Of a DNA stretch of 64,000 bases, positions 13,538-40,958 are shown piece after piece. The position numbers were made by a program, and so were the translations under genes. Origin of the DNA: Thermaceae bacterium (GTDB lineage Bacteria > Deinococcota > Deinococci > Deinococcales > Marinithermaceae). Every line of letters starts with the position of its first letter. The first letter of the stretch is position 1. The notes beneath the pieces were generated by a model. That model saw nothing but the letters and a program-made list of their open reading frames with translations. It was not told where the DNA came from and made no database searches. The stretch spans positions 53,532 through 117,531 of the forward strand of contig JAMOUW010000059.1 in NCBI GenBank assembly GCA_027067955.1, in the 5' to 3' direction.

Positions 13538-14443
13538 CTATTCCCCGCCGGGCAGCGCATCCTTCGCCGCCAGCGCCGCCCCGATGACCCCCGCATCCGC
13601 GCCCAGGAGCGCCGGAAGCAGCGGGGCGGTACGCCAGCCGGTGGCGCGGCTCTTGTATGCCGCGCTCACCAGCTCCCGCCAGGCGTCCCCCGCGCCCACG
13701 GCGACCCCTCCGCCGATTACGATTACCTCCGGGTCCCATAACTTCTGTACGTCCGCCAGCGCCTGGCCCAAATAACCGGCAGCCCCCTCCACTATGCGCC
13801 GGGCCAGGGCGTCCCCCGCCCGCCAGCGCCGGAAGAGTTCCGGGGCATCCACAGCCCCGGCGTAGGCGTAGGAGGCGTCGCGGGCCAGCGCCCGGCCGCT
13901 CGCCAGCGCCTCCAGACAACCCCGGTTGCCGCAGCCGCAAACCGGGCCGCCCGGCAGCACGGTAAGGTGGCCGATTTCCCCCGCCTGACCGAACGCGCCA
14001 CGCCAGACCCGCCCGTTCGCCACCAGCCCCCCGCCGATTCCGGTGGATACGGTCACAAAAAACGAACTCCCCGCTCCCCGGGCGGCCCCCAGGTGGTGCT
14101 CGGCCAGGGCAGCGGCGTTGGCGTCGTTCTCGATGGCCGCGGGCAGACCCAATGCTTCTTGCAAGCTCTCCCGCAGGGGAACGTCGCGAAAGCCGGGAAT
14201 GTTGGGGGCAAAGTTCACGATACCGCTATCAAAGTCTAGAGAGCCGGGAGCGCCGATGCCCACGGCCTCCACGGGGACCGGTGAGGCCGCGAGCGCCTTC
14301 CAGGCCGCAACGGCCATGGCCCGTAACACCGCTTCCCAACCCTCCCGGGGAGTAGCGATGCGGTCCTTGTAAACCAGCCGTCCCCCCGCGAGTACGCCCA
14401 GCGCTATCTTGGTTCCGCCCAGATCAATCCCCAGTGTCGCCAC
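13538..14443 (-). CDS. ROK family protein / glucokinase-like
   Basis: MATLGIDLGGTKIALGVL; CGCGNRGCLEALASGRALA. Confidence 0.9.
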   Translation of the reverse strand: MATLGIDLGGTKIALGVLAGGRLVYKDRIATPREGWEAVLRAMAVAAWKALAASPVPVEAVGIGAPGSLDFDSGIVNFAPNIPGFRDVPLRESLQEALGLPAAIENDANAAALAEHHLGAARGAGSSFFVTVSTGIGGGLVANGRVWRGAFGQAGEIGHLTVLPGGPVCGCGNRGCLEALASGRALARDASYAYAGAVDAPELFRRWRAGDALARRIVEGAAGYLGQALADVQKLWDPEVIVIGGGVAVGAGDAWRELVSAAYKSRATGWRTAPLLPALLGADAGVIGAALAAKDALPGGE

Positions 14444-14666
14444 CGGCGTCCTCCAAAAGGGCTCGCGCGGCGTCGGCAGCCGCCTCGGGTACCCAGACGC
14501 CCACCGGGCCCGTGGCCTCCGGAAGGATACCCGCGAAATCGGTGTAAGGGCCGAAAATGCGGGCCGCTATCCCGGCGGCGCGCAGCCGCCGCACCAGCGG
14601 CTCGGCTAGCGCCGGCTCACATTCGGCCAGCATGACGTAATCGGCGCCGGCGTAGTGCTTTTTCAC
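14424..14666 (-). CDS. small DUF2007-like protein, copy 2
   Basis: GTG start overlapping previous stop (GTGA); VKKHYAGADYVMLAECEPALAEPLVRRLRAAGIAARIFG...VGVWVPEAAADAARALLEDA. Confidence 0.6.
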   Translation of the reverse strand: MKKHYAGADYVMLAECEPALAEPLVRRLRAAGIAARIFGPYTDFAGILPEATGPVGVWVPEAAADAARALLEDAGGDTGD

Positions 14667-14908
14667 CCTTCCCCGTCTTCCAGGCGCAGCAACCGGCGGG
14701 CGTGCTCCAGCTGCTCCTCGGGCACCCACAACGAGGTAGGTGCGAGCGTAGGCAGCATCCCATCCAGTTCCACCGGCGGCCGCTCGATCTCGGCGGGAAT
14801 GCCGGCCCGGCGTAGCTCGGCGGCGAATCCGTCCACTATGGGGCGCTCCCCGTAGAGCAAAAAAGCGTAGACCCGCCCCCCAATCCGTTTGGTGTCAGGC
14901 GTTTTCAT
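14663..14908 (-). CDS. small DUF2007-like protein, copy 1
   Basis: MKTPDTKRIGGRVYAFLLYGERPIVDGFAAELRRAGIPAEIERPP...SLWVPEEQLEHARRLLRLED. Confidence 0.6.
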   Translation of the reverse strand: MKTPDTKRIGGRVYAFLLYGERPIVDGFAAELRRAGIPAEIERPPVELDGMLPTLAPTSLWVPEEQLEHARRLLRLEDGEG

Positions 14909-29704: not shown

Positions 29705-31111
29705 CTACATGACCGCGGTTACCGCCGCCTGCAACCAGCGAAGGAGCGGCTGGGGCCACACCCCCAAGGCCACCACCGCCAGCGCCAGTAAGACCAGCAG
29801 GCTGAATGCGGTAGGCGAAAAGGCGAGTTCCGGGGAATCCTCTGCGGGCGCCTCCAGGAAGACCGCAGCCAGGATCCGGAAATAGAAGTAGTAACCGAAG
29901 ACGACCATCACCACCGCAACTACCAGCGGTGCCCAGGCCTGCGCAGCAGCCAGCGCCGCGAAGACATACAGCTTGGCCAGAAAACCCGCCAGCAGCGGTA
30001 CGCCAGCCAGTGACAGTACGAAAACCGCCAGCAACACTCCCAGGAGCGGATTGCGCCGCCCCAGGCCTTTCCAGGACTCGAGCGTGGACGGCAGTCCTTC
30101 GGCTTCCAGCGCCTCGAGCGCGAAGAAGAACCCCAGGCTGGTGACGATGTAGGCGGCCAGGTAGTAGGCCACCGCGGTGTAGCCGGTGAGCGAAGCCGTC
30201 GAAAGCGCCAGACCCAAAAAGCCCATGTGCACGATGGTGGAATAAGCAAGGAGTCGCTTGAGGTCGTTTTGCAAAAGGGCCCAGAAGCTGCCGAGGACCA
30301 CAGACAACAGCGCCAGCCCGCCGATCCACTGCGCCATAACGGATTCCGAGCCGCCAAAAGCACGGCTCAGCAGCACCACTATTCCCAGCGCAAGGGCGGT
30401 CTTGGGAGCCACGCTCAGGAACCCCGCCATGAGGGGGAACGCACCCTGGTACGCATCGGGAGCCCAGGCGTGGAACGGCACCCAGGCCAGCTTGAAGCCC
30501 AGTCCCACCAGCATCAGCGCCATACCGCCGCGCGCCAGCGCGCTAGGGTTGCCTCCGAGCTCGATGGCGATACCCGTGTAACCCAGGTTGCCGGTTTCCG
30601 TGTACACAAGGGCCATGCCGAAAAGCAACAGCGCCGACCCCACCGCGCCCAGGATCATGTACTTGGCGGCGGCCTCGGTGCCAAAACGGCGGTCCCGGTC
30701 GTAACCCACGAGCACGTAAGTGGAATAGGCGGAGAGCTCCAGCGCCAGGTAGAACATCAGCAGATGAGCCGACGCCACCAGCAATATCCCCCCCAGCACG
30801 CCCCACATCACCAGCGCATGCACCTCGCCGCTACCCAGGGCGAATCCTCCTTTGCGAATCGCGGCCCCGGCGGCTACCAGAAGCCCCACCAGGCTCAAGA
30901 GGACGATGGCGGCGGAGGTAAGCGGGCCCATAACCACGGCTCCGTAGATGACCCCCGATTCGTGTGCGGCCAGCAGGCCCATAAGCAGGGAGGCGCCGAA
31001 GACAGTACCGCTGATGGCTCCGAGAACGGCAGGGCGCTCATCGAAACTCGGGGCGATGAGGGCGAGAACCATCCCCCCGAAAGCCAGTAGCACGATGACG
31101 GCGAGCGTCAT
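29705..31111 (-). CDS. nuoN: NADH-quinone oxidoreductase subunit N
   Basis: LLMFYLALELSAYSTYVLVGYDRDR...EAAAKYMILGAVGSALLLFGMALVY. Confidence 0.93.
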   Translation of the reverse strand: MTLAVIVLLAFGGMVLALIAPSFDERPAVLGAISGTVFGASLLMGLLAAHESGVIYGAVVMGPLTSAAIVLLSLVGLLVAAGAAIRKGGFALGSGEVHALVMWGVLGGILLVASAHLLMFYLALELSAYSTYVLVGYDRDRRFGTEAAAKYMILGAVGSALLLFGMALVYTETGNLGYTGIAIELGGNPSALARGGMALMLVGLGFKLAWVPFHAWAPDAYQGAFPLMAGFLSVAPKTALALGIVVLLSRAFGGSESVMAQWIGGLALLSVVLGSFWALLQNDLKRLLAYSTIVHMGFLGLALSTASLTGYTAVAYYLAAYIVTSLGFFFALEALEAEGLPSTLESWKGLGRRNPLLGVLLAVFVLSLAGVPLLAGFLAKLYVFAALAAAQAWAPLVVAVVMVVFGYYFYFRILAAVFLEAPAEDSPELAFSPTAFSLLVLLALAVVALGVWPQPLLRWLQAAVTAVM

Positions 31112-32580
31112 TTGAACACCTCCTGCACCATGGTCAGCAGGGGTTGAATCCCCGCGTCGATCCAGGGGGTGAGCGCCGCCGGAACCAGCCCCAGGAGCAC
31201 CGCCAAAAAGACGAGCGGCGCGGCGGCGGCCACTTCAACCGGACTGAGATCATCGAGGTTCGAGTCTGACCGGCCCAGCAACACGCGCTGAATGGTCCAG
31301 AGCATCGCACCGGCCAGGATCACTATCCCGAAAACGGCTATCCAAACGTAAGGGCGCGTCACTTCCGCCAGGAAGCCGCCCCAGAGGCTCTGGAACTCGC
31401 CCAGGAATCCCGCCAGCCCCGGCAGTCCCAGGCCTCCCAGCAAAGCCAGCCAGAGCACCGCCCCCAGCTTGGGCGCGGCGCTGTATACCCCCTGCATCGC
31501 CGCGATCTCGCGGGTATGGGTGCGATCGGCCAGCAGGCCCACCATGAGGAACATCAACCCCGTTATCACACCGTGAGCTACCATCTGGTAAACGGCGCCG
31601 TGTATGCCTATGGCGGTCATGGAAGCGATACCCAGCAATACGTAGCCCATGTGATTGACCGAAGAGTTGGCGATAAGCCGTTTGAGATCGCTCTGGGCGA
31701 GGGTTACGTAGGCCCCGTAGACGATGGATATGAGGGCCACCAGCGCCAGCAGGTTCGCGAAGCGCTCGAGCTCGCCCGGGAAGAGGGCCAGATTGAAGCG
31801 GATAAGACCGTAGCCGCCCATCTTGAGGAGCAGTCCGGCCAGGAAGATGGAACCCGCCGTGGGCGCCTGGGTGTGCGCGTGCGGCAACCAGGTGTGCAAC
31901 GGCACCGCCGGCAGCTTGATCAGGAACGCCAGCGCGAAGCCCCAGAAGAGCCAGGAAGCCGCCGGCAGGTTGGCCAGGTAGCCGGTAGCGCTCACCAGTT
32001 CAAGGTAATCGAAGCTGACCCGACCGAGCGCCGGAGCCGCCAGATAGGCTGTAGCCACTATGGCGGCCAGCATGAACACCGACCCCACCAGCGAGTAGAG
32101 CAGGAACTTGACCGCTGCGTAGCGCCGCTCCTCGTAACCCCAGAGCGCGATCATGAAGTACATCGGCACCAGCACCGCCTCAAAGAAGAGGAAGAAAACC
32201 ACCAGGTCGAGTGCCGCGAAGACGCCCACCAGCGCGCCCTGCAAGAGCAGCATCAGGGCGAAGAAACCCTTGTCGGTCTTGCGCCAGCTGGCCAGCACGC
32301 TTACCGCGGTCAGCAAGGGGGTGAGCGCCGCGAAAGGCAAGCTCAGGCCGTCGAAACCGACGTGGAATCTGGAGCCAACCAGGGGCAGCCAGTCGAACTT
32401 GAGCTCGCCGATGAACCCGCCAAAGGGAATCGGGTAGGTTGCGTACGCCCACAAACTCATTAGCAGCGTGAACAGGGCCACCCCCAGCGCCGTACGCTTG
32501 GCCGCCTCGGCCCGCGGATCGTCGAGCATGCCCACGAACGCCGCCGCCAGGATGGGGAGAAATATCAGGACCGGGATCAC
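31108..32580 (-). CDS. nuoM: NADH-quinone oxidoreductase subunit M
   Basis: VPMYFMIALWGYEERRYAAVKFLLYSLVGSVFMLAAI; LKLPAVPLHTWLPHAHTQAPTAGSIFLAG; GTG start at 32580. Confidence 0.93.
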   Translation of the reverse strand: MIPVLIFLPILAAAFVGMLDDPRAEAAKRTALGVALFTLLMSLWAYATYPIPFGGFIGELKFDWLPLVGSRFHVGFDGLSLPFAALTPLLTAVSVLASWRKTDKGFFALMLLLQGALVGVFAALDLVVFFLFFEAVLVPMYFMIALWGYEERRYAAVKFLLYSLVGSVFMLAAIVATAYLAAPALGRVSFDYLELVSATGYLANLPAASWLFWGFALAFLIKLPAVPLHTWLPHAHTQAPTAGSIFLAGLLLKMGGYGLIRFNLALFPGELERFANLLALVALISIVYGAYVTLAQSDLKRLIANSSVNHMGYVLLGIASMTAIGIHGAVYQMVAHGVITGLMFLMVGLLADRTHTREIAAMQGVYSAAPKLGAVLWLALLGGLGLPGLAGFLGEFQSLWGGFLAEVTRPYVWIAVFGIVILAGAMLWTIQRVLLGRSDSNLDDLSPVEVAAAAPLVFLAVLLGLVPAALTPWIDAGIQPLLTMVQEVFK

Positions 32581-34580
32581 CGCGCACCTCCCACGTAAAG
32601 CGCCAGCGCGCCCAGCAGCATGTAAAAAGCGTAGGTAGCGAAGCGGCCGCTTTGCAGATGGCGCAACAGTGACGAAATCACCAGACTGGTGTACCCCGCC
32701 AGGTCTACCAGCCCGTCGATCAGATAGCGATCGATGAACGCCAGCACCTGGGTGGGAGCCTGCGCCAGCGCTCCGAGCACCTTGTAGTAGAACTCGTCGA
32801 TGTAAAGACGGCGCTGCAACGCGGCGGTGAGCCACAGGGGCGCCCGCTGTTTGAGAGGGTCGGCGCTGTACCAGAACCAGGCCAGCCCCGCCCCCGCCAG
32901 GGCCACCAGGGTGCCCGTGACGTAACCCGTCATCAGCTTGGAAGCGGGCAGCAATTCGGGCATCTCACCCCGGTAGACGAGGGTCAGGAGACCGTAACCG
33001 AAGATCGGGCTGCCCCAAAAACCCACGAGGATGCTAAGCGCGGCCAGCGCCACCAGCGCGGTGATCATCTCGGCTCCGGACTCGTGCGGATGGTGCCCCG
33101 CGGGCGGGCTGGGGTCGGGTTCGGCTTCTTCGGGACCGAGGTTCAGCCAGGGCGCGCCGCGCGTCCACTCCGCCGCCTTCCAGGGGCTCTCCATCGCCGG
33201 CTTGTGGAAGGCGATGACGATCATGCGGGTGGTGTAGAAGGCGGTGAAGAACGCGGCCAGGAGACCAATGAGCCACAGCAGCGGCGCGTGTTCCTCGGCC
33301 GCGTGCAGGATAAGGTCCTTGGACCAGAAGCCCGCGAAGGGAGGTATTCCCATGAGCGCCAGCGCCCCGACCAGGAAGGTCCAGTAGGTCCAGGGCATGT
33401 GCTTCTTGAGGCGGTCCATTTCGAAGATGTCCTGGGTCGCAGCGCCGTGAATCATTGAGCCGGAACCGAGGAACAAGAGCGCCTTGAAGAAAGCGTGGGC
33501 CACCAGGTGGAACATCGCCGCCGCCCATCCGAAGACCCCCAGACCCAGGAACATATAGCCCAGCTGGCTGACCGTGGACCAGGCCAGAATTTTCTTCACG
33601 TCGGCGAAGGCCGGCGCCAGGACTGCCGCAAAGAGAGCGGTAAGCGCCCCCACCAGGGCTACCACCCAAAGCACCCCGCCAAAGAGAAGCAGCGGGTAGA
33701 AACGCGCGGTCAGGTATACACCTGCAGCCACCATCGTGGCGGCGTGGATCATGGCGCTGACGGGCGTGGGGCCCTCCATGGCGTCCAGCAACCAGACGTG
33801 CAGCGGGAACTGGGCGCTCTTGCCCATGGCGGCGATGAAGACCAGCAGTCCCACCGCCGCCGCCGCTCCGGTGCCGATGGCAAGCAGGTTCTGGCCGCTT
33901 CCCAGGTCGGCGAGGTCGAAGTTGCCGATGAGCAGGTAGAGCCAGAAGAGGCCCAGCATGAATCCCAGGTCGGCCAGCTTGGTGGTGATGAAGGCCTTCT
34001 TCTGCGCCTGCTGTGCGGTCTTCTTCTTGTAGAGGAAACCGATCAGCAGGTAGCTCATCAACCCCATTACCTCCCAGGCCAGTAGCGAGTGGAAGAAGTT
34101 GCCCGCCAGCACGAAGGCAAGCATGGCGGCGCTAAAGAGCTGCAGGTAGGCGAAGAAGGTGGGGTAGCGTTCCTCGCCATGCATGTAGCCGATCGAGAAG
34201 AGGTGGATGAAGAGCGAGGCCAGCGCCACCATCGCGGTAACCACCGCGGCGAGGGAATCTATGTAGATCACCAGGGGAATGCCCGCCTCACCGCGGATGG
34301 CCAGCCAGGTCCACTCGAGCCGGAAAGGGAAGTCCGGGGAGCCCGGCTTTATCAGGGCCTCCTCGTGATGCCCCCCCAGCAACGCGGCCAGGTTCCAGCC
34401 GGGAGCGGCCAGAATTACGTCGTGCAGGAGCCCCAGCGACAGCACCGCCACAACCGCCATAACCGCGGTGGCGAACCATCCCGAGCCGCGGCCGGGGAAC
34501 GAGCGCCCACCAAGGGCCAGCAGCGCGAAGCCCAGCGCGGGAAGCAGCGGTATCCAGTAGCTTAGTTCAACGTAGCTCAC
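32577..34580 (-). CDS. nuoL: NADH-quinone oxidoreductase subunit L
   Basis: FLLAWEVMGLMSYLLIGF-type sequence; AQFPLHVWLLDAMEGPTPVSAMIHAATMVAAGVYL. Confidence 0.95.
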   Translation of the reverse strand: MSYVELSYWIPLLPALGFALLALGGRSFPGRGSGWFATAVMAVVAVLSLGLLHDVILAAPGWNLAALLGGHHEEALIKPGSPDFPFRLEWTWLAIRGEAGIPLVIYIDSLAAVVTAMVALASLFIHLFSIGYMHGEERYPTFFAYLQLFSAAMLAFVLAGNFFHSLLAWEVMGLMSYLLIGFLYKKKTAQQAQKKAFITTKLADLGFMLGLFWLYLLIGNFDLADLGSGQNLLAIGTGAAAAVGLLVFIAAMGKSAQFPLHVWLLDAMEGPTPVSAMIHAATMVAAGVYLTARFYPLLLFGGVLWVVALVGALTALFAAVLAPAFADVKKILAWSTVSQLGYMFLGLGVFGWAAAMFHLVAHAFFKALLFLGSGSMIHGAATQDIFEMDRLKKHMPWTYWTFLVGALALMGIPPFAGFWSKDLILHAAEEHAPLLWLIGLLAAFFTAFYTTRMIVIAFHKPAMESPWKAAEWTRGAPWLNLGPEEAEPDPSPPAGHHPHESGAEMITALVALAALSILVGFWGSPIFGYGLLTLVYRGEMPELLPASKLMTGYVTGTLVALAGAGLAWFWYSADPLKQRAPLWLTAALQRRLYIDEFYYKVLGALAQAPTQVLAFIDRYLIDGLVDLAGYTSLVISSLLRHLQSGRFATYAFYMLLGALALYVGGAR

Positions 34581-34590
34581 ATTCGCCTCC

Positions 34591-34899
34591 TTATCCGCGC
34601 ATCTCGCTTATAGCGTCGTCGGTGACGGCGCCGTGGGTGCGGTAGACGTTCAGGAGAATCGCAAAGCCGATGGAAAGTTCGGCCGCGGCCACCACGATGA
34701 TGAAGAGGGCGAATATCTGCCCGGCAAATAAGTGGGGCTCGCGGAAGGCGGCCGCACTGGCGAAGGCCAGCGCCGCGGCGTTGAGCAGAATCTCCACCGA
34801 CATCAACACCGCGATCAGGTTGCGGCGCGTGAGTACGCCGTACAGGCCCACCGCCATCAGCAAACCCGAAAACAGCAGAAAATGTCCCAGGGTCACCAT
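34591..34899 (-). CDS. nuoK: NADH-quinone oxidoreductase subunit K
   Basis: GLYGVLTRRNLIAVLMSVEILLNAAALAF; FALFIIVVAAAELSIGFAI. Confidence 0.95.
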   Translation of the reverse strand: MVTLGHFLLFSGLLMAVGLYGVLTRRNLIAVLMSVEILLNAAALAFASAAAFREPHLFAGQIFALFIIVVAAAELSIGFAILLNVYRTHGAVTDDAISEMRG

Positions 34900-35369
34900 C
34901 AGCCGGACCTCCTTCGGGCGAGCGCTATCGCGCCCACCATTGCGAGCAGCAGCAGCACCGACGCCACCTCGAAAGGCAGCAGCGCCGCCTGCAACAGGTT
35001 GCTACCGAGCAGTTCCGGGCTGACCGGATTTATCTGGCCGTCGTGATGCCCCACCGCCCCCTTGAAAAACACGAGCGCCGCAGCCGCGGCCAGCAGGCCC
35101 GCCGCAATCTGCCAGGTCCGGGGAGCGCCGCTGCTGCGCGATCTGGTCATCATGATGATAAACAGCGTCATAATCGGGATCGCGGAAGCGTTCACCATGA
35201 ATTGAATGGCCGCCAGCGCTGGCGAGCCGAGCAACAGGTAAAGCCCCGCGATCAGGAAGAACGTGATCGCCAGGCTGAAAGCGGCGCGCACCATGTTGGC
35301 GGTCGTGACCGCAAATACGGCAAAGACAAGGGTGAAGGCCGCCAGGGCGTAGAACGCGGTCAGGCTCAT
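34899..35369 (-). CDS. nuoJ: NADH-quinone oxidoreductase subunit J
   Basis: MSLTAFYALAAFTLVFAVFAVTTANMVRAAFSLAITFFLIAGLYLLLGSPALAAIQFMV. Confidence 0.93.
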   Translation of the reverse strand: MSLTAFYALAAFTLVFAVFAVTTANMVRAAFSLAITFFLIAGLYLLLGSPALAAIQFMVNASAIPIMTLFIIMMTRSRSSGAPRTWQIAAGLLAAAAALVFFKGAVGHHDGQINPVSPELLGSNLLQAALLPFEVASVLLLLAMVGAIALARRRSG

Positions 35370-35935
35370 GAATCCACCTCCTCGGCCGGTTTCAAAATTT
35401 CGGCCAGGCCCCCAGGCTGCATCTCGGGCGGGGCCTTTTCGATTCGCCCGTCCTCGGTGCGAATCTCCACGCCGAATTTGGGGCTGTACCACTGCCGCGA
35501 ATTGCGCGCCTGCTCGTGCAGGAAGTCGATGTCAGCACGAAGCGTCCGCAGGTCGTAGGTGGACATCTCGAAGTCCTGGATCGTCACGATCGAGCTTACC
35601 GGGCAGGCCTCCACGCAGGCAGCGCAGTACATGCAGTTCACCAGATCTATGTCGAAGCGGTCGATGAGGAAGCCCTTGCCCTCGGGATTGCGGTGCCGTT
35701 CGATCGTGATCACCTGCGCGGGGCAGGCACGCTCGCACTGCAAACAGACGATGCAGCGCTCCGAACCATCCTCGTTTTCCACCAGGGCCAGCGACTGCAC
35801 CGACACCGGAGGCAGGTCGGGCTTCACATAGGGGTAGAACTCGGTGGGAGCCTCTTCGTAAACGCGCTTGTGTACCGTCGCCATCCCGGTACCGATGGCC
35901 TTTACGGCTTGCCAGACTTCTTGCAAAAGGCTCAT
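35366..35935 (-). CDS. nuoI: NADH-quinone oxidoreductase subunit I (2x[4Fe-4S])
   Basis: CIVCLQCERACP and CMYCAACVEACP. Confidence 0.95.
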   Translation of the reverse strand: MSLLQEVWQAVKAIGTGMATVHKRVYEEAPTEFYPYVKPDLPPVSVQSLALVENEDGSERCIVCLQCERACPAQVITIERHRNPEGKGFLIDRFDIDLVNCMYCAACVEACPVSSIVTIQDFEMSTYDLRTLRADIDFLHEQARNSRQWYSPKFGVEIRTEDGRIEKAPPEMQPGGLAEILKPAEEVDS

Positions 35936-35936
35936 C

Positions 35937-37112
35937 TTACCTCCAGATCAGGCGCATGTAGGCCGCCAGTACCAGTCCAAAGAGGGCCAGGGGTATCATC
36001 GCCTTCCAGGCGAATTCCATGAGCTGGTCGTCGCGGTAGCGGGGCAGGGTGGCGCGGATCCAGAGGAAGATCCAGACCCAGACCGCGGTCTTGAGCGTGA
36101 AGTAGAGGCTCTCGAGCGCCCCCGCCGCCAGGCTGCCGGGCTCGAGCCCGAAGAGCGGTCCGTGCCAGCCGCCGAAGAAGAAGACCACGATCAGCGCCGG
36201 CAGCAGGAAGAGCTCGACGAACTCCGCCAGGAAGAAGAAGGCGAAGCTCATACCCGAGTACTCGACGTTGTAACCGGCGATCAACTCGGACTCTGCCTCG
36301 GGGAAGTCAAAGGGAATGTGCTTGAGCTCGGCCAGGCTGGCGATCACGTAGAGCACAAAGGGCAGCGCTAGCGGCAGGAAGTTCCAAAGACCCAGCTGCG
36401 CGTCCACTATCCCGCTAAGCGAAAGCGTGCCGCTCCAGACGGCGACCGTCAGGAAAACCAGCGCCAGCGGTATCTCATAGCTCACCATCTGCGCACCGGC
36501 GCGCAAAGCGCCGATGAGCGCCCACTTGTTGCCCGAAGAAACGCCCCCCAGCAGCACCCCGTAGGTGCTGAGGGTGGAGACCGCGATCAGGTAGACGAGA
36601 CCCACGTTGGTATCGGCCAGCACCCAGCCGGAAGCGAAGGGAATGACCGCGAACATCGCGAAGCTGGCCACGAAGGTCACCGCCGGAGCGAGCCGGAAGG
36701 TCAGCACGTCGGCCGCGGCCGGAACGAAGTCCTCCTTGGCGAGCAGTTTGAGGGCGTCGAAAATTGTCTGAATACCGCCGGCGGGACCGTAGTGCATGGG
36801 GCCGAAACGCTCCTGCACCTTACCCAGATATTTGCGCAGCACCAGAATTAAAAGCAGCGCCAGAACCGCCGAAAGCAGGAACAGCAGCACAACCTGGAGC
36901 GCGCGCATGAAAACGAAACCCCAGCCACTGTCCCAGCCAAGGGCGCCGAACAGCGCTGGAACACCAGCGTAGGTAGTGATGACCAGCAACCAAAAGACGA
37001 AAACGTAAGCGGAGTACACCGCACGCTCGAGCCAGGGGCGGCTCTTTTGAGGATCGTACCCGAACAGGCGCGGACGGAAGTGCCGGTCTTCGGGAATGGG
37101 AATCTGGCTCAC
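35937..37112 (-). CDS. nuoH: NADH-quinone oxidoreductase subunit H
   Basis: GPAGGIQTIFDALKLLAKEDFVP; LKHIPFDFPEAESELIAGYNVEYSGMSFAFFFLAEF. Confidence 0.96.
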   Translation of the reverse strand: MSQIPIPEDRHFRPRLFGYDPQKSRPWLERAVYSAYVFVFWLLVITTYAGVPALFGALGWDSGWGFVFMRALQVVLLFLLSAVLALLLILVLRKYLGKVQERFGPMHYGPAGGIQTIFDALKLLAKEDFVPAAADVLTFRLAPAVTFVASFAMFAVIPFASGWVLADTNVGLVYLIAVSTLSTYGVLLGGVSSGNKWALIGALRAGAQMVSYEIPLALVFLTVAVWSGTLSLSGIVDAQLGLWNFLPLALPFVLYVIASLAELKHIPFDFPEAESELIAGYNVEYSGMSFAFFFLAEFVELFLLPALIVVFFFGGWHGPLFGLEPGSLAAGALESLYFTLKTAVWVWIFLWIRATLPRYRDDQLMEFAWKAMIPLALFGLVLAAYMRLIWR

Positions 37113-37123
37113 CGGTTCACCTC

Positions 37124-38251
37124 CTATCTATCGATCTCCCCGAACACGGGGTCGAGGGACGAAAGTATCGCTATCGCGTCGGAAAACTTGGCCCCGATGA
37201 AGAGGTCGGGGATAATTTGCAGGTTCGAAAAGGCGGCGCCCCGGTGCTTGACCCGGTACGGCTTGTCGGTTCCGTCGGAGATTACGAATACGCCCAGCTC
37301 GCCGCGGCTGTTTTCGACGGCGCGGTAGCGCTCGCCCGCCGGGGGCTTGATGCGAGCGGGCGCCTTGCCCTTGAAGGGTCCGGTCTTGGGGGTGAGTTCA
37401 AGCAACTGCCGCAGGATCCGGATCGACTGGTACATCTCCTGGAAGCGCACCCAGAAACGCGCATAAGTATCGCCGTCGGGCGAAGTCGGTATCTCGAACT
37501 CCACATCGGGATAGGCGTCGTAGGGGAAGGCCTTACGCACGTCATAAGCAACGCCGCTGGCCCTGAGCACCGGACCGCTCACGCCGCGGGCAATGGCGCG
37601 CTCCTTGCTGAGGACGCCCACGCCAATGGTACGGGCGTGCACCACCGGGCTTTCGAGCACCAGGTGCTCGTAGTCGACCATGCGCCGCTCGAGATGGTCC
37701 AGCAGATCAGCCACTTCTTTGAAGAAGTCAGGGTGAACGTCGCGGCGCACGCCGCCGAAAGTGTAATAGTTGGGCAGCATGCGCGCACCGGCGGTCTTCT
37801 CGACGATTCCGAGAATGATCTCGCGATCCCAGAAGGTATAGAGGAAGGGCGAGATGGCGCCCAGGTCCAGCATCGCCGTGCCCATCCACACCAGGTGGCT
37901 GGCAAGACGGAAGAGCTCGAAGAACATGGTGCGGATCTTCCTGGCCCGGTCAGGCACCTCCACACCCAGCATGTCCTCGATCGCCAGCACAAAGGGCAGC
38001 TCGTTTTGCGTGCCCGAAACGTAGTCCATGCGATCGGTGTATGGAATCACCATGGGATAGGTGCGCGCCTCTTCGATTTTCTCGTGGTTGCGGTGCAAAT
38101 AGCCTATGTGCGGCACCGCCCGGGTGATGCGCTCGCCCTCGAGCCCAAGCACCACGCGCAGCACTCCGTGGGTGGCCGGGTGCTGCGGACCCATGTTGAC
38201 GATCATTTCATCCGTGCGCCCGGGCACCGGCTCCAGGTTCATGGTGCTCAC
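37124..38251 (-). CDS. nuoD: NADH-quinone oxidoreductase subunit D
   Basis: [46 protein letters not shown]. Confidence 0.96.
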
Positions 38252-38760
38252 GAGGCTTCACCTCCTTCGCCCGCCTCGCCGGCTTCCGGCTCCGGCGGGG
38301 GCGGCGGTGTCCAGGGGTCGGGATCGGGCCAGGCCTTGGGCTCCCAGCCGGGGATCGGGTAACCGCCGGTGTCATAGCGCTTGAGCAGCGGATGCAATTC
38401 CCACTCGTCTTCCAGCAAGATACGCCGCAGATCGGGATGGCCGCTGAAGCGCACGCCCAGCATGTCGTAAGCCTCGCGCTCGTACCACTCCACCCCCGGC
38501 CAGAGATCGGTTACCGAAGCGACCACCGGGTTCTCGTAGCGTACGTCGGTGCGCACCGTCACCTTGGCGCGATCATGCAACCGGGTAAGGTGCAGGGTGA
38601 CGCGCAATCCGTAACCCGTGTCGATACCGCTGACCGCGCGCGGGAAGTCGAAACCGTCGGCCTTAAGTTTTTCGCAGAGCGCCCGGTAGTCCTCCGGGTG
38701 CACCGTGTAAATGTCCTCGTCGAAAAGCCGCTCCTGCTTTAGCCTCAGTTCCACGGTCAC
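38248..38760 (-). CDS. nuoC: NADH-quinone oxidoreductase subunit C (Pro/Glu-rich C-terminal tail)
   Basis: [34 protein letters not shown]. Confidence 0.93.
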
Positions 38761-38764
38761 CTCC

Positions 38765-39319
38765 CTAGAGCACCGGGATCCGGCCGTCCTTGCCGGGTTC
38801 GGCCATGATCTCGTAGTCGGCGGGAATCTCTCGGGGTTTCTTGTAACGCAGCTCGCGGTCGGCTATCTTGTCACGCAAGAGCAAGAGCGCCTGCAACAGG
38901 GCCTCCGGACGCGGCGGGCAGCCGGGAATGTAAACGTCCACGGGCACGATCTTGTCCACGCCTTCGACGACCGAATATCCCTGCCGGAAAGGCCCGCCCT
39001 GATTGGCGCAGGCGCCCATCGAAATGACCCACTTGGGTTCGGCCATCTGGTCGTACAGGCGCCGCAAACGCTTGGCCAGCTTCTTGTTGACGGTGCCCGA
39101 AACTATCATCACGTCGGCCTGCCGGGGCGTGTTGCGGAAGAACATGCCGAAGCGGTCGGCATCGATCTTGGGATCCCAGGTGGCCATCATCTCGATAGCG
39201 CAGCAGGCGATACCGAAGGTCAGCGGCCACATGCTGCGGCTGCGCGCCATGTTGATAAGGTCGTCGAGCGTGCCCAGAATAACGTCACGCGGCCTTTCGT
39301 CGGAACCTAGTAAACCCAC
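38765..39319 (-). CDS. nuoB: NADH-quinone oxidoreductase subunit B
   Basis: [39 protein letters not shown]. Confidence 0.95.
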
Positions 39320-39684
39320 TTGAGCACCCCCCTCCGCCAGGCATAGACGAGTCCCATAGCCAGGATGACGATGAAGACCACCGCTTCGAAGAAGCCCACC
39401 CAGCCCAGCCTGTCGTAGGCCACGGCCCAGGGAAACAGCAAGGCGGCCTCGACGTCGAAAAGCAAAAAGAGCAAAGCGAAAATATAGTAGTTGACGTTGA
39501 ATCGCAGATTCACATCGCCAATCGGTATCTCGCCGGATTCATAGGCGTCGAGTTTGCCCGCGGGCTTGGGCCGCACCCCGACCAGCAAGCGGGCGATCCC
39601 AATCGTCGCGAAAACGATCGCCAGACCGGTTAGGAAGAACGCTATCGCGGTGATACCCGCCTGCAATTCCGTTAGGTAGTCCAC
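39307..39684 (-). CDS. nuoA: NADH-quinone oxidoreductase subunit A
   Basis: [48 protein letters not shown] at 39684. Confidence 0.94.
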
Positions 39685-39833: not shown

Positions 39834-40958
39834 ATGCGTACGTTTGCCTTTTTCTTATTAATGCTGACCTCCTTTACCTGGGCGGGACCCGACTGGCTGC
39901 GCTGGGGAGCGCACGCCGACGAGGGCTTTACCCGTTTCGTCTTCGAGTTGCCGCTAGGCACGTCATACGAAGTCGTGAGCGAAAACGCGGTGGTACGCGT
40001 GCGCCTGGGACTGGGGGTCGCAAAGCAGGAAACCCTGACCACCGAAGATCCCGCGGTCGAACACGTGGAGATAGTGCCCGCTACCGCGGGCGCCGAGGTA
40101 AGGCTCTATCTGAGGCCGGGATCTACGGCGAAAAAACCTTTTGTGCTCGAAGGTCCGGCGGCCCACTTTCGCCTGGTTATCGACGTCGTCCATCCCCAAA
40201 ACGGCCTCGCGGCGCAACCGCCGAAACCCAAACCAAGACCTCCGGTGGTGGTGATAGATCCGGGTCACGGCGGTCCCGACCCCGGTACGGTCGGCTACAT
40301 CCGCGAGAAAGAGGTCACCCTCGACATCGCCCTGCGGGTGCGCTACCTGCTCGAGGCCAACGGCATCAAGGTGGTGCTCACCCGCGACGGCGACTACGAC
40401 CTGGCCCCGCCCCAAATCAGGGATTACAACCAGCGCAAGATAATCGATCTGGACAAGCGGGCCGAGATGACCAACGGCGACCGCAATCTCTTCGTTTCCA
40501 TACACGTCAACTCGGCCGAACGTCCCGCGCGCGGAATAGAAGTCTACTATCTGGGCAAGACCCTGGATCCGCGCACGCTGGCCCTCGCCGTGGCCGAAAA
40601 CGGTGGCGGGGAGCTGGGGCTCGAGCTCACCCAAAAAGCCGAGAGCACCGCCGAAGCCGCACTGGCCGATTTGATAGCCCAGGGCAACCTGCAGTTCTCC
40701 GCCCGGCTGGCGAAAGCAATTCTCAAGCAGTTGCTCAGCCGCACCCACACCATCAATCGCGGCGTGCACTCCGCCCCCTTCTACGTGCTCCGCTACGCCC
40801 GCATCCCTGCGGTGCTAGTGGAAGTGGGTTTTGCCAACCATCCCACCGAGGGACGGCTACTTGCGCGCGTCGACTACCGCCAACAGCTGGCGGAAGGAAT
40901 AGTAGCGGGGATCCTGGAGATGCTGAGGAACGGCACATACGCGGCGCCCGGGCAATAG
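39834..40958 (+). CDS. N-acetylmuramoyl-L-alanine amidase (Amidase_3, N-terminal AMIN-like)
   Basis: Signal peptide MRTFAFFLLMLTSFTWA; VVIDPGHGGPDPGTVG; SIHVNSAERPARGIEVYYL; VLVEVGFANHPTEG. Confidence 0.93.
   Translation: MRTFAFFLLMLTSFTWAGPDWLRWGAHADEGFTRFVFELPLGTSYEVVSENAVVRVRLGLGVAKQETLTTEDPAVEHVEIVPATAGAEVRLYLRPGSTAKKPFVLEGPAAHFRLVIDVVHPQNGLAAQPPKPKPRPPVVVIDPGHGGPDPGTVGYIREKEVTLDIALRVRYLLEANGIKVVLTRDGDYDLAPPQIRDYNQRKIIDLDKRAEMTNGDRNLFVSIHVNSAERPARGIEVYYLGKTLDPRTLALAVAENGGGELGLELTQKAESTAEAALADLIAQGNLQFSARLAKAILKQLLSRTHTINRGVHSAPFYVLRYARIPAVLVEVGFANHPTEGRLLARVDYRQQLAEGIVAGILEMLRNGTYAAPGQ

Follow-up and report, generated by a model that had tools for sequence, protein, structure and literature searches.

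A conserved second complex I operon without nuoEFG in a Thermaceae bacterium and its relatives in the Deinococcota

The minus strand of the window, that is, the whole 64,000-nt stretch of DNA analysed here, was found to contain between positions 39684 and 29705 eleven tightly packed genes in the order nuoA-B-C-D-H-I-J-K-L-M-N, as read from open reading frames and family models. This is the order claimed in the preliminary description of this DNA, and all eleven genes were present, each matching its Nuo family. The intergenic gaps across nuoA-N were only -13 to +11 bp, and thus these genes constitute a single operon. The nuoA gene (39307-39684) starts with GTG and matched the NCBIfam NuoA models (E 1e-33), nuoC (38248-38760) matched NuoC_fam (E 2e-28) and has a proline-rich C-terminal tail, nuoI (35366-35935) matched the NuoI models (E 2.5e-25) along with PDB entries of NuoI/TYKY, and nuoJ (34899-35369) matched the NuoJ models (E 2.5e-21). 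The scores of these four proteins were below the curated family cut-offs, yet the models support the assignments. The products of nuoB (38765-39319; also Oxidored_q6), nuoD (37124-38251; PRK06075), nuoH (35937-37112), nuoK (34591-34899), nuoL (32577-34580; NDH_I_L) and nuoM (31108-32580; NDH_I_M) scored above the cut-offs of their families, the NuoH model covering protein residues 71-390 behind an N-terminal extension, and nuoN (29705-31111) was assigned from Proton_antipo_M (E 9e-58) and its place in the operon. A gene for N-acetylmuramoyl-L-alanine amidase (39861-40958, plus strand; Amidase_3, E 1e-46) lies divergent from nuoA and is context outside the complex; the neighbours of the operon are housekeeping or envelope genes.

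The stop of nuoD and the start of nuoH are separated by 11 bp (37113-37123, minus strand), the distance reported earlier, at the site that nuoEFG occupy in the canonical operon. On the coding strand this junction is of the GATCGATAG-ATAGGAGGTGAACCG-GTG style, with the nuoD stop, a AGGAGGTG ribosome-binding site and the GTG start of nuoH. When NuoE, NuoF and NuoG encoded in the same genome were searched against the window by tblastn (E<=1e-3), no match was obtained, which bears out the claim that the window holds no EFG-like sequence elsewhere. In the positive comparison, the canonical A, B, C, D, H, I, K, L and M proteins each matched their paralogue in the window, NuoJ being too diverged to match and the truncated canonical NuoN having been left out. 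The placement of nuoD next to nuoH was repeated in further genomes of Oceanithermus, the genus of this thermophilic bacterium, as well as in two more families of the order, and the D-H junction was found in more than 10 other assemblies, including a closed chromosome. The collapse of the assembly at this junction, a caveat attached to the original claim, was ruled out by this recurrence and by the Shine-Dalgarno sequence in the gap.

The residues expected to hold cofactors and quinone are intact. NuoI has eight cysteines in two CxxCxxCxxxC motifs at residues 61 and 101, corresponding to clusters N6a and N6b, and NuoB keeps all four ligands of cluster N2 (Cys39, 40, 104 and 134). NuoD retains the GPQHPATHG and DRMDY motifs of the quinone site, NuoK keeps the two membrane glutamates (E36 and E74) and NuoH keeps the acidic loop. 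The dN/dS values against O. profundus were 0.04-0.16 for the 11-gene operon and 0.04-0.18 for the canonical copy described below; the 11-gene operon is under strong purifying selection.

Family searches for NuoF, NuoE and NuoD located a canonical operon, nuoA-B-C-D-E-F-G-H-I-J-K-L-M, on another contig (C40) of the same genome, where the contig end cuts nuoN. This complete nuoE-F-G set, which the preliminary description had named as a refuting result, refutes the possibility that the organism has no NADH module, and it was therefore wrong to picture a Thermaceae-like organism whose complex I receives no NADH input. On C40, nuoEFG are accompanied by the nuoABCD and nuoHIJKLM of that operon and cannot simply be regarded as the module missing from the window operon; the genome encodes two complex I enzymes and the window operon is the second one. 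In O. profundus 506T a distance of 40 kb separates the two operons on a single chromosome, and there the canonical operon has all 14 genes including nuoN. The contigs carrying the two operons were collinear with that chromosome (80% identity at the DNA level over 20 kb in one case and 87% over 16 kb in the other), and hence neither is a contaminant. The canonical 14-subunit enzyme, as in Thermus Nqo1-14 and the C40 copy, has eleven subunits homologous to those of the window and in the same order, whereas the window operon is without NuoE, F and G, its NuoD is shorter by ~25 residues and its subunits are 29-57% identical to those of the canonical copy (43-45% for NuoD). A second NuoF-like protein was seen on contig C83 (L004:5684-10001) beside a molybdopterin oxidoreductase and a small 2Fe-2S/4Fe-4S protein, and from this company the cluster looks like an NAD-type formate dehydrogenase.

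Alignment of the two NuoD proteins showed that the ~25 residues missing from the window copy lie around position 300, where the canonical copy reads RQMLGRSMEALIFHFKLVTEGF. Among the named loci whose neighbourhood could be judged, with EFG scored next to nuoD, this segment was present in all 17 loci having nuoE, F or G and absent in 57 of the 58 without them. The exception (L123:10001-11185, a Nitrospiraceae MAG) has an insert of different sequence at this site and nuoH adjoining nuoD. The association follows phylogeny, with 2-3 changes on the tree and 1-2 independent pairs, and since these changes fall on few deep branches the link between the segment and EFG is only suggestive and beyond statistical testing. 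In PDB and family alignments, the D-type subunits FpoD, MBS and MBH aligned without a gap at the segment, and cyanobacterial NdhH, which has no EFG beside it, keeps an insert there. An AlphaFold model of the window NuoD, built with 10 sequences, had a mean pLDDT of 50.6 and was set aside as poor.

The window-type NuoD (E<=1e-115) was detected in 19 of the 111 genomes of the order; its carriers belong to 8 of the 31 genera, spread over three families, and the gene order of the operon was unchanged in the carriers wherever the contig was long enough; the very GC-rich loci L030, L134 and L135 were read by tblastn or left out of the gene-order reading. The window's family has the divergent amidase beside nuoA, as do two genomes from two further families, one from each. 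This adjacency suggests that the position is old and shared, and that the operon was inherited vertically, with losses along the way, instead of being transferred recently. A NuoD tree that included 80 named loci placed the 11-gene copies of Deinococcota in one clade (SH-aLRT 99) apart from the canonical NuoD of the genome, and a sister relation of this clade to Bacteroidota was weakly supported (64). One MAG of the order Deinococcales (G025; L042:3626-15620) contains the 11-gene operon and gave no match for canonical NuoD or NuoF; with a completeness of ~91%, this MAG may simply have a gap there. The C-terminal tails of some subunits vary: NuoC has a helix-hairpin-helix-like end in a genome of family f3 (L041:5779-6645), and in family f5 both NuoC and NuoI end in Pro/Ala-rich tails containing a PKIKRW-like motif (L042:9985-11025 and 13757-14692). 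Two Acidobacterial clusters (L053:8735-15533 and L073:8447-15540) read nuoA-C-D-H-J-K-L-M-N; nuoB and nuoI were not found there and may be encoded elsewhere.

The gene set was compared with the known relatives of complex I. The NDH-1 of cyanobacteria and chloroplasts has no EFG and uses ferredoxin as the donor, and the ferredoxin-using cyanobacterial enzyme has extra docking subunits. The window operon shares the absence of EFG with NDH-1, but these docking subunits are absent from it, and its NuoD does not have the insert kept by NdhH. The core subunits of Fpo, the F420H2 dehydrogenase of methanogenic archaea, are homologous to those of the window and FpoD shows no gap against its NuoD; however, the window proteins scored far below the Fpo cut-offs, and the FrhB/FpoF-type F420 subunit (PF04432) characteristic of Fpo/Fqo had no match in 41 genomes in which control families matched. 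The NiFe hydrogenase-family large subunit typical of Ech/MBH/Hyc was not seen in the operon either, as the window NuoD matched only Complex1_49kDa and no NiFeSe_Hases. The window operon lacks the EFG of the canonical enzyme, which occur only in the separate C40 operon, and matches the known 11-subunit complex I-like enzymes of Bacteroides and Desulfitobacterium. The NUO of Bacteroides fragilis has the same set, nuoABCDHIJKLMN without EFG, and contributes no NADH:quinone activity, NADH being handled by NQR and NDH2 (PMC7002350); in Oceanithermus, by contrast, a 14-subunit complex I stands beside the 11-subunit one. The Bacteroidota loci compared, which are other than B. fragilis, have a short-type NuoD 44-47% identical to that of the window. 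By its published description, the enzyme of Desulfitobacterium hafniense has the same subunit set as the window operon and is proposed to receive electrons from PFOR via ferredoxin (PMC11238625). D. hafniense is a strict anaerobe, whereas Oceanithermus is a microaerophile and nitrate reducer according to the O. profundus genome paper (PMC3111992).

No donor gene linked to the 11-gene operon was found among its neighbours. Targeted searches for ferredoxins and hydrogenase subunits, as had been proposed earlier, revealed a NiFe hydrogenase in this genome and a 7Fe-type ferredoxin in every carrier (17/17 among 41 relatives); the ferredoxin query was a Thermus sequence, the adequacy of which is shown by 96-99% matches in genus g6. 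A 2-oxoacid:ferredoxin oxidoreductase was present in 16 of these 17 carriers, the exception being a genome that is 64% complete, and most carriers of the window's family have three such enzymes versus one in an operon-less genome, probably Marinithermus (G007). These enzymes were rejected as a discriminating trait of carriers, as 19 of the 24 non-carriers also have one; ferredoxin is common in non-carriers as well, and therefore the co-occurrence does not single out ferredoxin. A full-length NiFe hydrogenase large subunit was found in one of the 17 carriers, the window's own genome (G000:C84:15925-17448, L142), and in none of the other Oceanithermus searched. Most carriers of genus g2 have a single NuoF match, and so no copy of the formate dehydrogenase type. 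By this distribution across carriers, a hydrogenase, formate dehydrogenase or F420 enzyme is unlikely as the general donor. In its genome paper, O. profundus is described as using pyruvate and acetate, growing with nitrate and having menaquinones as sole quinones, and a text search of that paper gave no hit for NADH or ferredoxin (PMC3111992). Such substrates, nitrate growth and a menaquinone-only quinone pool would fit a ferredoxin:menaquinone pump.

The preliminary description had offered two readings for the lack of EFG, an input module encoded elsewhere or another donor. The former holds for the genome, on C40, but within a separate full operon; the latter is the better reading for the window operon, since the segment that goes with EFG is missing from its NuoD, and since NADH is not oxidised by an 11-subunit relative that has been characterised. 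The window operon probably encodes a proton-pumping ferredoxin:menaquinone oxidoreductase that works beside the complete 14-subunit NADH:menaquinone oxidoreductase. In the proposed mechanism, 2-oxoacid:ferredoxin oxidoreductases would reduce ferredoxin, a soluble low-potential carrier, and this carrier would in turn reduce the two [4Fe-4S] clusters of NuoI, the putative entry point. From there electrons could reach menaquinone at the NuoD/NuoH site by way of cluster N2 of NuoB, and proton pumping would be driven by the energy of this transfer. The gene set, the second operon, the intact cofactor and quinone-site residues, the purifying selection, the missing NuoD segment and the separate clade are read directly from the sequences, and from them we infer that the products assemble into an enzyme, that ferredoxin is its donor and menaquinone its acceptor, and that it pumps protons.

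Other explanations were weighed against this one. A donor different from ferredoxin, such as flavodoxin, a hydrogenase, a formate dehydrogenase or an adaptor protein, could dock on NuoI, as several partners were suggested by proteomics in D. hafniense (PMC11238625) and this genome has a NiFe hydrogenase and the formate dehydrogenase-like genes of C83. We consider this unlikely, though the strongest of the competing explanations, because the hydrogenase is confined to one of 17 carriers, most g2 carriers have no second NuoF, FrhB is absent from all 41 genomes and only the amidase and envelope genes are conserved beside the operon. It appears still less probable that the 11-subunit core borrows NuoEFG from the C40 operon to form an alternative NADH-driven complex I. 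A complete nuoEFG is indeed available in the same genome, a lack of it was seen in just one of the 19 carriers and NuoF was found in 16 of the 17 carriers of the 41-genome set; but the C40 module belongs to a full operon that already supplies a core for it, the window NuoD shares only 43-45% identity with its canonical counterpart and is without the segment found in 17/17 loci with EFG, and the 11-subunit NUO of B. fragilis has no NADH activity (PMC7002350). The carrier without a NuoF match (G025) also suggests that there is no need to borrow the NADH module. That the operon is a relic, silent or in decay, or that its missing EFG is an artefact of assembly, can hardly be maintained against intact frames, a Shine-Dalgarno sequence at the D-H junction, dN/dS values of 0.04-0.16 and a junction shared by more than 10 assemblies including a closed chromosome, by which collapse was already refuted.

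The ferredoxin:menaquinone oxidoreductase remains the favoured reading for the window operon. Its wider form, in which several Deinococcota lineages would have kept such a pump from an early ancestor beside the NADH-linked complex I and the missing NuoD segment would be a general structural hallmark of bacterial complexes to which no NADH module docks, is tentative, and we regard it as possible but rather doubtful.

Thermus complex I is a structural model of the 14-subunit enzyme. These results indicate that some relatives of Thermus carry a second, diverged 11-subunit version beside it, which is a real and conserved complex I of an ordinary type, known from other bacteria, in a mildly surprising place; our literature search found no description of an 11-subunit complex I in Deinococcota. 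As both forms are present in O. profundus, a single culturable thermophile allows the two to be compared. As a simple marker at the sequence level, the NuoD segment could help to sort complex I operons by the presence of the NADH module. Electron transfer from ferredoxin to menaquinone yields more energy than that from NADH to menaquinone, and this extra energy would matter where menaquinone is the sole quinone.
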